Assembly: GCA_014654705.1 (NCBI GenBank)
Contig: JACVZY010000059.1
Span: forward strand, 62,001-126,000
Length of the DNA: 64,000 nt
Reading direction: 5' to 3'
Source of the DNA: Ignavibacteria bacterium
GTDB lineage: Bacteria; Bacteroidota; Ignavibacteria; Kapaibacteriales; UBA4661
Within the stretch, counting starts at the first letter, position 1. Each line of letters opens with the position of its first letter. The position numbers and the translations under genes are program-made. Of this stretch, positions 37,116 through 63,207 are shown one piece after another. The notes below the pieces were generated by a model that saw only the letters and a program-made list of their open reading frames with translations, had not been told where the DNA came from and searched no databases.

Positions 37116-37159
37116 ATACGACAGCTCAATAGTGGCGAATTTTGCCCTATACTACATAC

Positions 37160-38314
37160 ATGACACCAGCACTGTTAGCGCTTGAAAATGGAATGACCTT
37201 TCGCGGTTTTGCTTTTGGGGATACCGAAGCCGAGGCACAAGGCGAGGTAATTTTTAACACCGCCATGACCGGTTATCAAGAAGCACTTACCGATCCCAGT
37301 TACTACGGGCAAATCCTGACCTTTACCTATCCCCACATCGGCAATTATGGAGTGAACATTCACGACGTGGAGTCCGGCATTATGCAGGCTGGGGGCTTGA
37401 TTGTACGCGAGTATTCCAAAATATACTCGAATTGGCGGGCATCGCACTCATTAGCGGAATTTTTGCAACTCAATCACAAAATTGGTATTGAGGGGCTGGA
37501 TACGCGAGCTTTAGTGCGGGTGCTCAGGAGTGAAGGCGTGATGCGGGGCATTGTCTCGGCTAAGGAGACAAATACGGATGTACTCATAGACCGTGCCCGC
37601 GCTATCCCAAGCATGGACGGGCTTGACTTGACGGGCTATGTGACGTGCAAAGAAGCACATTTGTACCAAGAAGCCGACGAACCATACATTCTCAATGTCA
37701 ATGGTTACCGTTCGCCCAAGAAATTACGGGTGGCAGCGATTGATTATGGCATCAAAAAGAACATTCTGCGCCGTCTGGCAAGCTATGGTTGCGAAATTAG
37801 GCTGTTCCCATCGAACGCAACAGCAAGTGACATTCGCGCCTACAACCCTGACGGTATCTTTCTTTCCAATGGTCCCGGCGACCCTGCTGCGGTAAACATT
37901 GATGCGGTGCGCGAACTTCTCGCCGAAAAGCCCGTTTTTGGTATTTGCTTGGGTCACCAAATCTTGGGTTTGGCGTTGAAAGCAACCACTTACAAAATGA
38001 AATTCGGGCATCGTGGCGTGAACCATCCGGTGAAAAATCTTCTCACGGGAGGAATTGAAATTACGTCGCAAAATCATGGTTTTGCCGTAGATGCAGCATC
38101 GATGCCGCCGGAGATTGAGCTAACGCACATCAATCTGAACGACAATACCGTGTCGGGATTCCGGCACCGCACTTTGCCCATCTTTTGTGTGCAGTACCAC
38201 CCCGAAGCAGCACCCGGCACGCACGATTCCGACTATCTTTTCCGTCAATTTGTCGAAGCTATGAACGCTGAGGCTGTGAATGCCAATAGACGTTCATTTG
38301 CAGCCGTTGCATAA
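37160..38314 (+). CDS. carA: Carbamoyl-phosphate synthase small subunit
   Basis: CarA is the glutaminase half of carbamoyl-phosphate synthetase and supplies ammonia to CarB for arginine and pyrimidine synthesis. From the ATG at 37160 it has 384 residues, the normal size. The N-terminal domain shows LENGMTFRGFAFGD, GEVIFNTAMTGYQEALTDPS and the LDTRALVRVLRSEG motif. The class I amidotransferase domain has the nucleophile Cys in FGICLGHQILGLAL and the His-Glu pair in VQYHPEAAPGTHDS. carB is not in the window. The GNAT gene starts 31 bp downstream and probably shares the transcript, which ties the pair to arginine synthesis. Confidence 0.96.
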   Translation: MTPALLALENGMTFRGFAFGDTEAEAQGEVIFNTAMTGYQEALTDPSYYGQILTFTYPHIGNYGVNIHDVESGIMQAGGLIVREYSKIYSNWRASHSLAEFLQLNHKIGIEGLDTRALVRVLRSEGVMRGIVSAKETNTDVLIDRARAIPSMDGLDLTGYVTCKEAHLYQEADEPYILNVNGYRSPKKLRVAAIDYGIKKNILRRLASYGCEIRLFPSNATASDIRAYNPDGIFLSNGPGDPAAVNIDAVRELLAEKPVFGICLGHQILGLALKATTYKMKFGHRGVNHPVKNLLTGGIEITSQNHGFAVDAASMPPEIELTHINLNDNTVSGFRHRTLPIFCVQYHPEAAPGTHDSDYLFRQFVEAMNAEAVNANRRSFAAVA

Positions 38315-38345: not shown

Positions 38346-39113
38346 ATGTCTAACAGTAGTGATACCGCACCTGTCCTCGAACCTCCGGTCAATTCATCTC
38401 CCGAAACACTCCTACCGCTTCCTGTTCTTCAGCCAGCCGACGACCGCTTCAGGGTGCAGGTTGCCAGCGAAGAACACACGCGCTTTGCTGAGGAAATCTG
38501 TGCTGAAATGGAGGCATCAGCAAAAGTGCGTGGTACGGGGATTGCCAAGCGCAAACCGGAATATATCATCAACAAAATGCACGAAGGCAAGGCGGTCATT
38601 GCCCTGACGGACGACAATCGTTTTGCGGGTTTCTGCTATATTGAGACATGGAGCGGCAAAGAATTTGTTGCCAATTCGGGATTGATTGTCGTGCCGGAAT
38701 TTCGCAAAGATGGTTTGGCAAAGCGCATCAAACAGCGTATTTTCGAGCTTTCGCGCGAAAAATTTCCTGATGCAAAAATTTTCGGTATTACCACCAGTCA
38801 TGCGGTAATGAAAATTAATACCGAGCTTGGTTATGTGCCGGCTCCTTTCTCCGAATTGACGCAAGACGAAACCTTTTGGAATGGCTGCAGTTCTTGTCCG
38901 AATTACGATATTCTGTCTCGAACACAGCGTAAAATGTGCCTGTGTACCGGTATGCTTTTCGACCCCAACGACCCACATCCCATCGTGGAGCGTGTTGCGG
39001 AGCACCTTAGCCCAGAGATTGCGGCGCAACTTCTGAACGGGGAACCTCTCGACAACAACGCTTCTGAAAATGATGGTATAGAAAACAGAGAAGCCAAAAA
39101 CAAGGATGAATAG
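38346..39113 (+). CDS. GNAT acetyltransferase, probable N-acetylglutamate synthase
   Basis: From the ATG at 38346 this 255-residue protein has a Ser/Pro-rich N-terminal 30 residues, then a GNAT domain. KPEYIINKMHEGKAVIALTD and NRFAGFCYIETWSGKEFVAN lead to the acetyl-CoA loop VVPEFRKDGLAKRIKQRIFE. A cysteine set (Cys181, Cys184, Cys198, Cys200; NGCSSCPNYDIL and MCLCTGML) suggests a bound metal. From memory, the same sequence pattern occurs in the acetyltransferase that sits beside argG in Bacteroidetes and is thought to replace ArgA as the first enzyme of arginine synthesis. Here it follows carA by 31 bp, and argG is in the same window. A charged tail (NNASENDGIENREAKNKDE) closes it. Confidence 0.8.
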   Translation: MSNSSDTAPVLEPPVNSSPETLLPLPVLQPADDRFRVQVASEEHTRFAEEICAEMEASAKVRGTGIAKRKPEYIINKMHEGKAVIALTDDNRFAGFCYIETWSGKEFVANSGLIVVPEFRKDGLAKRIKQRIFELSREKFPDAKIFGITTSHAVMKINTELGYVPAPFSELTQDETFWNGCSSCPNYDILSRTQRKMCLCTGMLFDPNDPHPIVERVAEHLSPEIAAQLLNGEPLDNNASENDGIENREAKNKDE

Positions 39114-58297: not shown

Positions 58298-59482
58298 ATG
58301 TCCAAACTCGTTGTTCTCGCCTATTCGGGCGGCTTGGATACGTCTTACTGCGTAAAATACTTCTTGGCGCAAGGCATGACCATTCACTCAGTAATTGTCA
58401 ACACGGGCGGTTTTTCTGCTGATGAGCTAAAGGAAATCGAAGCGCGTGCATATCGCCTCGGCGTACAGAAACACGTGACGCTCGACGAAACTGCCAATTA
58501 TTACGCTAAATGTATCAAATACCTTATCTTCGGCAATGTACTAAAAAACAACACCTATCCGCTTTCGGTGAGCGCCGAGCGCGTGTTTCAGTCGCTTGCC
58601 ATTGCAGGATATGCGAAGGAAGTGGGGGCAGATTTCGTTGCGCATGGTTCCACAGGCGCTGGCAATGACCAAGTGAGGTTTGATGCGGCTTTTACGGTGC
58701 TTATTCCGAATGTTGCTATTCTCACGCCTATCCGCGACAACAAACTTTCGCGCGAGCAGGAAATTGAGTTTTTGATTCAGAACGGCGTGAGCCAAGACTG
58801 GACAAAAGCGCAATACTCCATCAACAAAGGGCTGTGGGGAACGACCGTCGGCGGCAAAGAAACTCTCACCTCCGATGAATACTTGCCTGAAAGTGCCTTT
58901 CCGACGCAGCTTTCCAAGCACGAACCGGAAGAACTGACGCTGCACTTCACCAAAGGCGAGCTGACAGGGCTAAACGGCGAAACCATGCCGCCCGTGCAAG
59001 CAATACAGCGCATTGCGGAGCTCGCGCAGCCGTTTGCCATCGGGCGTGATATTCACGTCGGTGACACGATTATTGGCATCAAAGGGCGCGTGGGATTTGA
59101 AGCCGCCGCGCCGCTCATCATTATCAAGGCGCATCACACGTTGGAAAAGCACACACTCACCAAAGCGCAACTTGCGCTCAAAGAGCAAGCCGCTACGATG
59201 TACGGTTCGCTCTTGCACGAAGGGCAATTCTTGGAGCCGGCTATGCGCAACTGCGAAACGCTGCTGGAAAGCACACAAGCGACCGTGAGCGGCACGGTGA
59301 AGGTGTATCTAGCGCCATATCGTTTCCACGTTATCGGTATTTCCTCGCCGCACGACCTCATGCAAGCGAAATTCGGTAAATACGGCGAGATGAATAATGC
59401 GTGGTCAGGTCAGGACGTGCGCGGCTTTGCGAAGATTGTCTCGAATCAGGCAATGATGTTTAATTCGGTGAATCAAGAGTAA
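58298..59482 (+). CDS. argG: Argininosuccinate synthase
   Basis: ArgG joins citrulline and aspartate using ATP in arginine synthesis. The 394-residue product starts MSKLVVLAYSGGLDTSYCVK with the PP-loop SGGLDTS. It also has FVAHGSTGAGNDQVRFD, TPIRDNKLSREQEIEFL, SINKGLWGTTVGGKE and GRDIHVGDTIIGIKGRVGFE. The sequence belongs to the Bacteroidetes-like branch (short linker, KNNTYPLSVSAERVFQSLAI). The other arginine-related genes in view are carA and the GNAT gene, 20 kb away; here argG stands alone behind hflX. Confidence 0.97.
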   Translation: MSKLVVLAYSGGLDTSYCVKYFLAQGMTIHSVIVNTGGFSADELKEIEARAYRLGVQKHVTLDETANYYAKCIKYLIFGNVLKNNTYPLSVSAERVFQSLAIAGYAKEVGADFVAHGSTGAGNDQVRFDAAFTVLIPNVAILTPIRDNKLSREQEIEFLIQNGVSQDWTKAQYSINKGLWGTTVGGKETLTSDEYLPESAFPTQLSKHEPEELTLHFTKGELTGLNGETMPPVQAIQRIAELAQPFAIGRDIHVGDTIIGIKGRVGFEAAAPLIIIKAHHTLEKHTLTKAQLALKEQAATMYGSLLHEGQFLEPAMRNCETLLESTQATVSGTVKVYLAPYRFHVIGISSPHDLMQAKFGKYGEMNNAWSGQDVRGFAKIVSNQAMMFNSVNQE

Positions 59483-59525: not shown

Positions 59526-61298
59526 ATGAAACGTCTTCTTTTTTGTCTTGCGGTTGCTTGCCTTTTGCTTCCGTGCTTTGTTACGCCAGCATTCACCCAA
59601 AATAATGCGTCCTATTCTCCAGAAGAACCGCGCTGGGGCGATACGCTTACTATTCGCTATAACTGTAACGGAATTAAGGCATCACTGACGCCACGTGATG
59701 AAATCTATGCTCTGCTCCGTTTATGGAAAACTGACGGCGGCAGGAAGGACACGTGTATTAAACTTCGTGTCGTTGATAGCATCGCTATTGGGCATTATGT
59801 GTTGGAGGATTCTCTTGTGCGCGGCAGCTTTAGTATTCTTTCGCCGGAAAAAATAACACGAGAAGGTCGCGGATTTTCATTCAAACGGCGAGACGGTGTG
59901 GCGGCTCGTGGTGTAACAGCCGATATGATTATGGTGGATAAAGATGCATTAGCCAAAGAATTTGCACTCTATCCGGATAACTTTGCAGCATATATCACAA
60001 AATGGAATGCTCTTGAGTATGACAAAAAACTTGATGAGGCGAAAAGACACCAAGAAATCAACAATGATCTTGTTGCACTAAAACGAACTATAATAGTAAA
60101 TCCTGAGCGGTATGCAGCATTTGCAACAGCGTACAAAATGCTTGGTAAAACTACGGAATACGTTGATATGCTAAAGCGTTTGGGTAATGAGTTTCCTTTG
60201 TCGCCTTATACTGAAGAGCAGCTTAATTACTTTGTGAGAAACCGTACAAAGGATACTGCAACAAAAGAAATTCGTGCTTTGAGTCGCTCTATTGCTCTCC
60301 GGTTCCCATGGAGTTCCTTTGCCAAAGAATATCTTAGCCGTGCTTATTATATTGATACTATTTTAACAGCATCAATAGTAAAGCCGATTTTTGATGCTTG
60401 GACTCAGATAGAGCCAAACAACTATGAACTATACTCAATCTATCTCTATCTATCGAAGCAGTCCAATATCGTGTCGGACACGACGGTAATGTTTGCACAA
60501 CGTCTGATGGACTTAACAGCAAACCGAGAGACAATGACACGATTTTTTATGAATAATCCGCGTAGCAAAGCTTTTGCCTATCGTAATGCGGCACAAGCGT
60601 TTGTGCTCGCAGGACGTTTAGGTCAGGCATTTGCTGCCATCAAAGCAGCACAGGCACTCGCTCCTGATGCAGATATGCAAGGTGAGTTGTTTGCCTTGGA
60701 AGGCAGTGTGTGGAAGCAGAGCGGTCAGTACGCACTTTCCGAAGCAGCATTTATCAATGCACAAGCGATTGGCTCAAAAACAGCAAAAGACTCTGCACTT
60801 GCGGTGTACAAACAGATTCGTGGTACAGATTCAGGCTTCGCAGCGTTTCTGAAGCAAAAATCCGATAGCATTGCGGGTACAAAGAAGACACCGGCGATTC
60901 CCTTCACAGTAAAAGGTCTGGATGGCAAAACTTACGACATTGCGGCTTTGAAAGGTAAAGTGGTTGTCTTAAACTTCTGGTTTGTTGATTGCCCGCCGTG
61001 TCGTGTTGAAATCCCCGGATTAAACACGCTTGTGAAGGAATTTGCTCAAAAAGATGTCGTGTTCCTTGCCCTCGCGCTTGACGATGAAAAAGACTTGAAA
61101 GAATTTCTCAAAAAATCACCGTTCACGTACACCATTGTACCAAAGGCACGGGAAATCTCGCAGAAGTATGGCGTAGAAGGTTATCCGACCCACATTGTCA
61201 TTGACCGCAACGGCATGAACGTTGGGCGGCTTATGGGCGGTTCAGAAAAACGTCATGAAGACCTTCGACCTTTGATAGAAAAAGCCCTAGGGCTATAG
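59526..61298 (+). CDS. TlpA-like thioredoxin-fold protein with helical repeats, copy 1
   Basis: The 590-residue product has a signal peptide (LFCLAVACLLLPCFVTPAFT), so it acts in the periplasm or is surface-exposed. Residues about 25-120 form a beta-rich N-terminal domain (SPEEPRWGDTLTIRYNCNGI). A long helical middle with TPR-like pairs follows (YAAFATAYKMLGKTTEYVDM, then ALAVYKQIRGTDSGFAAFLK). The last 150 residues are an AhpC/TSA-TlpA domain: PFTVKGLDGKTYDIAALKGK, then the redox motif Cys489-Pro-Pro-Cys492 in WFVDCPPCRVE, and GVEGYPTHIVIDRNG with the cis-Pro loop. It probably reduces disulfides or moves electrons to a periplasmic target. A near-copy follows directly. Confidence 0.88.
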   Translation: MKRLLFCLAVACLLLPCFVTPAFTQNNASYSPEEPRWGDTLTIRYNCNGIKASLTPRDEIYALLRLWKTDGGRKDTCIKLRVVDSIAIGHYVLEDSLVRGSFSILSPEKITREGRGFSFKRRDGVAARGVTADMIMVDKDALAKEFALYPDNFAAYITKWNALEYDKKLDEAKRHQEINNDLVALKRTIIVNPERYAAFATAYKMLGKTTEYVDMLKRLGNEFPLSPYTEEQLNYFVRNRTKDTATKEIRALSRSIALRFPWSSFAKEYLSRAYYIDTILTASIVKPIFDAWTQIEPNNYELYSIYLYLSKQSNIVSDTTVMFAQRLMDLTANRETMTRFFMNNPRSKAFAYRNAAQAFVLAGRLGQAFAAIKAAQALAPDADMQGELFALEGSVWKQSGQYALSEAAFINAQAIGSKTAKDSALAVYKQIRGTDSGFAAFLKQKSDSIAGTKKTPAIPFTVKGLDGKTYDIAALKGKVVVLNFWFVDCPPCRVEIPGLNTLVKEFAQKDVVFLALALDDEKDLKEFLKKSPFTYTIVPKAREISQKYGVEGYPTHIVIDRNGMNVGRLMGGSEKRHEDLRPLIEKALGL

Positions 61299-61437
61299 TG
61301 ATAGTCCTTATCTATCCTCTGATTTAACCGAATAAGTTTGCAAACCCTGATGAACAGCGCATAATGTTTTTATAGTCTTGTGATTCGTTATACCTTAGAA
61401 TTCACGTACTATTTCCTCCTCATTTTTCGTGTTTTTT

Positions 61438-63207
61438 ATGAAGCGTCTTCTTTTTTGTCTCTTCGCCAGTTATGTGCTGGTGTACTTGTGTTTGCCTTCC
61501 GCCTCAGCCCAGCAACAAGTGGCATGGTGTTCCCCCAAAGAGGTGCGTTGGGGCGACACGTTGACCGTTTACTACAATACCAAAGCAACAAAAGCAACCC
61601 TGTCTGTTCGAGATGAAGTGTATGCTAATTTTTACTTCACGATGACCGATGGATCCTTCAAAGAGACGAGTATCAAATTGACATTAGCCGATAAAATGTT
61701 CATCGGAAAATACGTGATAGAAGATTCGTTATCAGAAGGACATCTTGCCATTCATACACCAGAAAAATGGGTACGTGTGGGTGATGACTTTATTGCCCTT
61801 CGTAAAGACGGCATACCTGCTCGTGGAGCAACAGTAAGCAAAATCTGGAGCGACAGTACAGCATTCTCGAAAGAAATAGCGCTGTATCCTGATAATTTTG
61901 CCGCATATCCTGCCAAATGGGAGTATCTTCAGTATGCTAAAAAATTTGATGAATCCAAGCTCAAGCAAGTAATTCTCAACGACCTCACGGCATTAACACG
62001 GAATAATACAGCGAATCCCGGGCGATATAGTGCTTTGGCTTCAGCATACAAACAGCTTGGCAAGATGTCTGATTATTACGATATGTTGAGGCGCTTGGGC
62101 AAGGAATTTCCGTTATCACCATACACAGGGCAGCAACTTATCCGCTTTTCTTTGCAACAATACAACGATTCGACAAAATGGGAGATTCGTGCGCTGATTC
62201 GTTCCATTGCCTCACGGTTTCCAACAAGCTCCATTGCAAGAGAAATGGTAAAACATAGTTTTGCCGACACAACATTAACGATTTCAACGACAAAAAATAT
62301 CTTTGATGCATGGATTGCGCAGGAATCAAACAATCTCGAAGCGTACATGGAGTTTCTGCGTTTAGCCAAGCGGACAAAGCCTGTTCCTGAGAACACTGCT
62401 CTTTTTGCTCAGTATGCGCTTGAACTCATGATGAAACCTGAAGTTCGGGTACGCTACCAAATGAATAATAATTACTCCATCGGTGACCTGTATCGTCAAG
62501 TGTCAGACGCATTGATTGCGGCTGGGCGCACGGGGCAAGCACTGGTTGTGCTCAAAGCAGCACATACGTTTGAGTTTGATGCTGACACGCAAAGTGAACT
62601 CGTTGCTAAGGAAGGCTCTCTGCTCCTGCAAAGTGGTCAGGTCTTGCTTGCGCAGGAGGCATTTGTAAAGTCATATACTCTTGGCTCAAAAACAGCAAAA
62701 GACTCAGCACTTTTGGTATACAAACAGATTCGCGGCACAGATTCAGGCTTTGCGGCGTTTCTAAAGCAAAAATCCGACAGTATTGCAGCACTGAATAAGA
62801 AGCCTGCTCCCACTTTCATGGCAAAAGGTTTGGACGGTAAAACGTATGATATTGCAAAGTTGAAAGGCAAAGCTATTGTGCTGAACTTCTGGTTTATCGG
62901 ATGCCCACCATGCCGTCAGGAAATTCCGAGCCTGAATACGCTTGCGAAGGAATTTGCCAAAAAAGATGTCGTGTTTCTCGCCCTCGCGCTCGACGATGAA
63001 AAAGACTTAAAAGAATTTCTCAAAAAAACACCGTTCACCTACACCATTGTACCAAAGGCATCAGAAGTCTCGCAAAAATACGGCGTGGAAGCCTTCCCGA
63101 CCCACATTGTCATTGACCGCAACGGCATGAATATCGGTCAGCTTGTGGGCGGCTCGGAAACACGCCATGAAGACCTTCGACCTTTGATTGAGCGGGCATT
63201 GGAGTAA
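61438..63207 (+). CDS. TlpA-like thioredoxin-fold protein with helical repeats, copy 2
   Basis: From the ATG at 61438 the product has 589 residues and the same design as copy 1: signal peptide (LLFCLFASYVLVYLCLPSAS), N-terminal domain (SPKEVRWGDTLTVYYNTKAT), helical middle and C-terminal TlpA domain. The redox cysteines are again Cys489 and Cys492 (WFIGCPPCRQE). The N-terminal leader and the last 150 residues are nearly the same as in copy 1 at the DNA level, while the middle has drifted. A GTG at 61429 gives a 3-residue longer form; I prefer the ATG because it matches the start of copy 1. It is followed after 5 bp by the esterase gene. Confidence 0.88.
   Translation: MKRLLFCLFASYVLVYLCLPSASAQQQVAWCSPKEVRWGDTLTVYYNTKATKATLSVRDEVYANFYFTMTDGSFKETSIKLTLADKMFIGKYVIEDSLSEGHLAIHTPEKWVRVGDDFIALRKDGIPARGATVSKIWSDSTAFSKEIALYPDNFAAYPAKWEYLQYAKKFDESKLKQVILNDLTALTRNNTANPGRYSALASAYKQLGKMSDYYDMLRRLGKEFPLSPYTGQQLIRFSLQQYNDSTKWEIRALIRSIASRFPTSSIAREMVKHSFADTTLTISTTKNIFDAWIAQESNNLEAYMEFLRLAKRTKPVPENTALFAQYALELMMKPEVRVRYQMNNNYSIGDLYRQVSDALIAAGRTGQALVVLKAAHTFEFDADTQSELVAKEGSLLLQSGQVLLAQEAFVKSYTLGSKTAKDSALLVYKQIRGTDSGFAAFLKQKSDSIAALNKKPAPTFMAKGLDGKTYDIAKLKGKAIVLNFWFIGCPPCRQEIPSLNTLAKEFAKKDVVFLALALDDEKDLKEFLKKTPFTYTIVPKASEVSQKYGVEAFPTHIVIDRNGMNIGQLVGGSETRHEDLRPLIERALE

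Follow-up and report, generated by a model that had tools for sequence, protein, structure and literature searches.

A GNAT-family acyltransferase of the ArgA2/BT3761 type as the probable N-succinylglutamate synthase of a Kapabacteria-like bacterium

How does a bacterium in which neither of the known enzymes ArgA and ArgJ is detected begin the synthesis of arginine? The question is raised by the window analysed here, a stretch of 64,000 nucleotides from a Kapabacteria-like Bacteroidota genome (5.7 Mb, 99% complete), and by one gene within it, at 38346..39113 on the forward strand. The gene encodes a protein of 255 aa that, judged from its sequence, is a GNAT-family glutamate N-acyltransferase (ArgA2/BT3761 family) and a probable N-succinylglutamate synthase. 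It starts 31 bp after the end, at 38314, of carA, which encodes the carbamoyl-phosphate synthase small subunit (37142..38314, forward strand; NCBIfam TIGR01368, 471 bits); an alternative in-frame ATG is present at 38280, but the three closest (Kapabacteria) relatives share the start at 38346. A first-pass annotation, made from the letters alone, had proposed a non-classical N-acetylglutamate synthase at this position, and the open reading frame and NCBIfam (TIGR01368) analyses confirm the frame, the 31-bp distance from carA and the cysteines at residues 181, 184, 198 and 200 on which that proposal drew.

The assignment to the GNAT superfamily comes from several kinds of comparison. As a single sequence the protein gives a weak match to Pfam Acetyltransf_1 (E = 0.0016, under the gathering score), no Pfam match to the ArgJ domain (PF01960) and no match in NCBIfam, hence no name; a profile of 44 family members, by contrast, retrieves the PDB GNAT PA4794 at 2.7e-07. 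The AlphaFold model has a core at approximately residues 35-210, most of it with pLDDT >90, and N- and C-terminal tails of low confidence. Three N-acetylglutamate synthase proteins are among the best matches to the modelled fold, namely Neisseria 2r8v, Rv2747 (5yo2) and ArgA (5yge, a structure with acetyl-CoA and glutamate); overall, the fold most resembles those of known N-acetylglutamate synthases and other GNATs. Residues R120-K-D-G-L-A125 (38703..38720, forward strand), the predicted CoA-binding loop, fit the published motif (R/Q)xxGx(G/A) (PMC4490483), with R120 invariant in the family comparison; the acetyl-CoA loop described at first pass is thereby recovered, in agreement with the profile and fold matches. 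The protein shares the GNAT fold with the short N-acetylglutamate synthase Rv2747 and with the NAT domain of classical ArgA, but is only 12-17% identical to them over that fold; it has no amino-acid-kinase domain, and it possesses an invariant four-cysteine C-terminal segment. At 255 aa, GNAT only and with no NCBIfam match, it is not a classical ArgA (TIGR01890).

A marked association with arginine genes is evident in the neighbourhoods of its relatives. The family is compact, with the host protein 53-88% identical to 43 relatives that are mostly argG-linked, which bears out the resemblance, noted at first pass, to an acetyltransferase found beside argG in Bacteroidetes. The named relatives are nearly all Bacteroidota, and the nearest (77-86%) come from metagenome genomes labelled Candidatus Kapaibacterium. 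Among 80 relatives, argG begins no more than 500 bp downstream of the GNAT gene in 70 and lies inside the flanking sequence retrieved (at most 8 kb) in 73; argC is near in 64, argD in 59, a carbamoyltransferase gene in 57 and argB in 45, counts taken over a set in which some contigs are short and with the identities of neighbouring genes checked with NCBIfam at sampled loci. The gene adjoins carA in only three of the 80, the three nearest (L034, L035 and L036), so the move next to carA looks like a local rearrangement in the lineage of the window, and the placement is by itself weak evidence for a role in arginine synthesis. The same counts bear on whether we are dealing with a carA-linked protein of pyrimidine or carbamoyl-phosphate metabolism: the 31-bp spacing and the shared gene order in those three relatives would suit such a protein, but the preponderance of argG within 8 kb (73/80) over carA (3/80), and the fact that CarA also serves arginine synthesis, make this reading exceedingly improbable. 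The first-pass annotation had derived its arginine link from both family and neighbour; the family half is upheld by the argG synteny (70/80) and by the fusions described below, while the carA neighbour contributes little.

The window also contains an argG of its own (argininosuccinate synthase, 58298..59482), overlooked in the first-pass annotation, which lies 19 kb downstream of the GNAT gene on the same strand; it scores 253 bits against a curated cut-off of 268, and the ArgG proteins of the relatives tested likewise fall below. Adjoining this argG, at 59526-63207, are two tandem, related proteins of ~590 aa, an apparent duplication; a thioredoxin-like CPPC motif (WFxxCPPCRxEIP) is present in the C-terminal part of both.

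In two species the two genes have become one. In-frame GNAT-ArgG fusions of 623 aa (L002:289-2160, reverse strand, genome G023) and 592 aa (L038:7986-9764, forward strand) both carry the GNAT as their N-terminal part, and since they are 80% identical to each other over 588 aa, an assembly error is unlikely to lie behind them. Fusion of a glutamate acyltransferase to an arginine-pathway enzyme recalls H-NAGS, the ArgH-NAT fusion of Moritella (PMC4490483), though these two proteins have ArgG as the partner and the acyltransferase at the N-terminus.

These features place the protein in a family with a short published history. In a review of 2015 the glutamate succinylase had yet to be identified (PMC4490483). 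A role for the GNAT family was proposed from Caldithrix, for Cabys_1732 (PMC5317091); it is supported by mutant fitness in Bacteroides thetaiotaomicron, where BT3761 (Q8A1A5), to which Cabys_1732 is >50% identical, is needed for growth without arginine (PMC7311316), and work on gut Bacteroidetes introduced the name ArgA2 and proposed N-succinylglutamate synthase activity (PMC9026213). On the evidence of its argG-linked relatives, and with BT3761 and Cabys_1732 compared by their published descriptions, the window protein most likely belongs to this ArgA2/BT3761 family. It is thus of a known type, a non-orthologous first enzyme published in 2017-2022, and the window gene adds a member from Kapabacteria. 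It shares with ArgA2/BT3761 (PMC7311316, PMC9026213) the character of a stand-alone GNAT found in arg operons, in genomes that lack ArgA and ArgJ and have a succinylornithine-type carbamoyltransferase; it differs in that the gene of the window's lineage adjoins carA with argG 19 kb off, and in its long tails. Cabys_1732 of Caldithrix abyssi, of the same family according to PMC7311316, lies in a locus with the order argAGCBEH.

The remaining gene content of the host is that of an arginine pathway with its first enzyme missing from the known types. The first-pass annotation had seen no ArgA or ArgJ in the window and had suggested a search of the genome for argA, argJ, argB and argC; genome-wide, there is no ArgJ and no ArgA above the curated cut-off, whereas argB (above cut-off) and argC are found. 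The argC gene lies just beyond the window end and, like argH, on the same contig as the GNAT gene and argG. Of two carbamoyltransferase genes in the host, one (in L115) has a product that looks like an aspartate carbamoyltransferase by sequence, and the other lies directly upstream of argB. An M20 deacylase is 62% identical to one encoded between argB and argH in the relative G023; its gene begins no further than 105 bases into contig C93, and argB ends ~80 bases before the end of contig C25, which fits, and does not prove, that the two genes are neighbours across these contigs. The pathway genes shown here for the host are thus argB, argC, argG, argH and those of the carbamoyltransferase and the M20 deacylase.

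Across the Bacteroidota surveyed, the GNAT protein and ArgJ exclude one another. In 148 genomes the GNAT protein is found in 61, ArgJ in 63 and both together in none, while classical ArgA (TIGR01890) is above cut-off in 0 of the 148; argB is above cut-off in all 61 GNAT genomes and in 61 of the 63 ArgJ genomes. Fisher's test on the GNAT/ArgJ 2x2 table gives p = 4e-22, a value to be read with the genomes being related and not independent events. The exclusion is partly clade-structured, yet a switch is seen inside one order, where G109 has ArgJ and the other eleven sampled genomes (host included) have the GNAT, and also within one family (f24), where genus g70 has ArgJ. A match in genome G081 (E = 0.001) was dropped from the family, being 24% identical over a partial stretch of a 492-aa frame, and was treated as an unrelated GNAT.

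Because of family membership, argG synteny, the ArgG fusions, the absence of ArgA and ArgJ and the exclusion with ArgJ, we consider it very probable, as far as sequence comparison can tell, that the GNAT protein catalyses the first committed step of arginine synthesis in the host. The single-sequence family matches, weak and generic as they are, might instead suggest an arginine-linked accessory acetyltransferase, active for example in regulatory protein acetylation. That would leave an otherwise missing essential step whose sole candidate found is this GNAT, and it sits poorly with the fact that GNAT and ArgJ co-occur in no genome and that arginine rescues BT3761 mutants; we hold it to be highly unlikely.

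If the protein is the first enzyme, which acyl group does it transfer? The carbamoyltransferase encoded upstream of argB matches the Bacteroides fragilis enzyme (1js1) with E = 2.7e-114 and, by this sequence comparison, belongs to the N-succinylornithine type of that species; its residue at the specificity position, that of B. fragilis Pro90, is Val. In 93 related carbamoyltransferases this position is V, A, T, S, Q or I, and Glu in none; S, P, A or V there goes with a preference for the succinylated substrate, according to the summary given in PMC7311316, and most Bacteroidetes use succinylated intermediates (PMC7311316). The succinylornithine-type carbamoyltransferase (ArgF3) is found in 59 genomes, and every one of them also has the GNAT (59 of the 61 GNAT genomes). 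In the other two, G030 and G135, the carbamoyltransferase is Xanthomonas-like and more distant, yet the residue at the key position is Ala. We had considered 14 such more distant carbamoyltransferases as acetylornithine-specific and dropped this, Ala occupying the key residue in 9 of 9 aligned; the one distant enzyme tested has the Xanthomonas enzyme as its best match.

Since the host carbamoyltransferase is of the N-succinylornithine type and carries Val as its specificity residue, succinyl-CoA is the more likely donor, and the cap is probably succinyl rather than acetyl, with N-succinylglutamate rather than N-acetylglutamate as the predicted product. The same step could be run with acetyl-CoA, by a true N-acetylglutamate synthase feeding acetylated intermediates. 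In line with this, Cabys_1732 has been described as an N-acetylglutamate synthase (unpublished results, PMC5317091), N-acetylglutamate synthases are among the fold matches of the model, and two family members co-occur with the Xanthomonas-like (acetylornithine-type) carbamoyltransferase; because of the Cabys_1732 description, the family may use either acyl-CoA. The present host differs from that report in its succinyl-type carbamoyltransferase, with Val and not Glu at the specificity position, and the family tracks this carbamoyltransferase in 59 of 61 genomes, so we regard acetyl transfer as unlikely here, if appreciably less so than the other alternatives. Of the original proposal of a non-classical N-acetylglutamate synthase, then, the first-step role is retained, on family, synteny, fusion, ArgA/ArgJ absence and ArgJ exclusion, and the acetyl group is disfavoured by the Val residue and the succinylornithine-type carbamoyltransferase.

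We infer both the reaction itself and its succinyl specificity, and the pathway would run as follows. The GNAT protein would transfer an acyl group, most likely from succinyl-CoA, to the alpha-amino group of L-glutamate, a cap that would prevent cyclisation of the later semialdehyde. The capped intermediates would then be processed by ArgB, ArgC and an ArgD-type aminotransferase, N-succinylcitrulline would be made by the succinylornithine-type carbamoyltransferase, the cap would be removed by the M20 peptidase-family deacylase, and ArgG and ArgH would carry out the final steps.

The cysteines form a CxxC-x13-CxC set (Cys181/184/198/200; 38886..38945, forward strand) that is conserved in all 106 members compared; C97, N186 and T201 are likewise invariant. 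AlphaFold models the cysteine segment at high confidence. From the pattern, a putative metal site at the four cysteines can reasonably be proposed. A bolder combined reading, which we put forward tentatively and as somewhat doubtful, is that of a dedicated GNAT glutamate N-succinyltransferase with a metal site (zinc or iron-sulfur) of structural or regulatory function at the invariant CxxC...CxC, forming in some relatives a single polypeptide with argininosuccinate synthase. Biochemical work has two concrete handles here, the cysteines that never vary and the fusion to ArgG. As the protein has no NCBIfam name, genomes such as the host's can be scored as having no first arginine step; naming the protein closes this annotation gap for Kapabacteria and predicts succinylated intermediates there.

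Some Bacteroidota in the survey have argB yet none of the known first enzymes. In 12 of the 148 genomes argB is accompanied by the more distant Xanthomonas-like carbamoyltransferase, while neither ArgJ nor the GNAT is present and no ArgA is above cut-off. In all seven of these twelve that were examined, a conserved P-loop protein of ~350 aa (52-92% identical) is encoded in or near the arg genes, as at L156:13797-14840 (reverse strand) and L165:5100-6164 (forward strand), and its gene lies between argG and argC in G013 and G131; the protein is also present in L155, L157, L158, L159, L160 and L163. It has a sub-threshold match to the DUF1611 P-loop and no NCBIfam name, and its model matches for the most part GTPases of the SRP/FtsY type, along with other P-loop proteins. 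By elimination, the P-loop protein is a candidate first arginine enzyme, a further replacement, and perhaps an ATP-dependent one. DUF1611 includes DgcN, a D-glutamate N-acetyltransferase; a literature search on DUF1611/DgcN and arginine found no support for the candidate role, one paper mentioning only the DgcN-DgcA route. One genome, G030 (L163, L164), has both the GNAT and the P-loop candidate along with a Xanthomonas-like carbamoyltransferase, and its GNAT match reads through one TGA.
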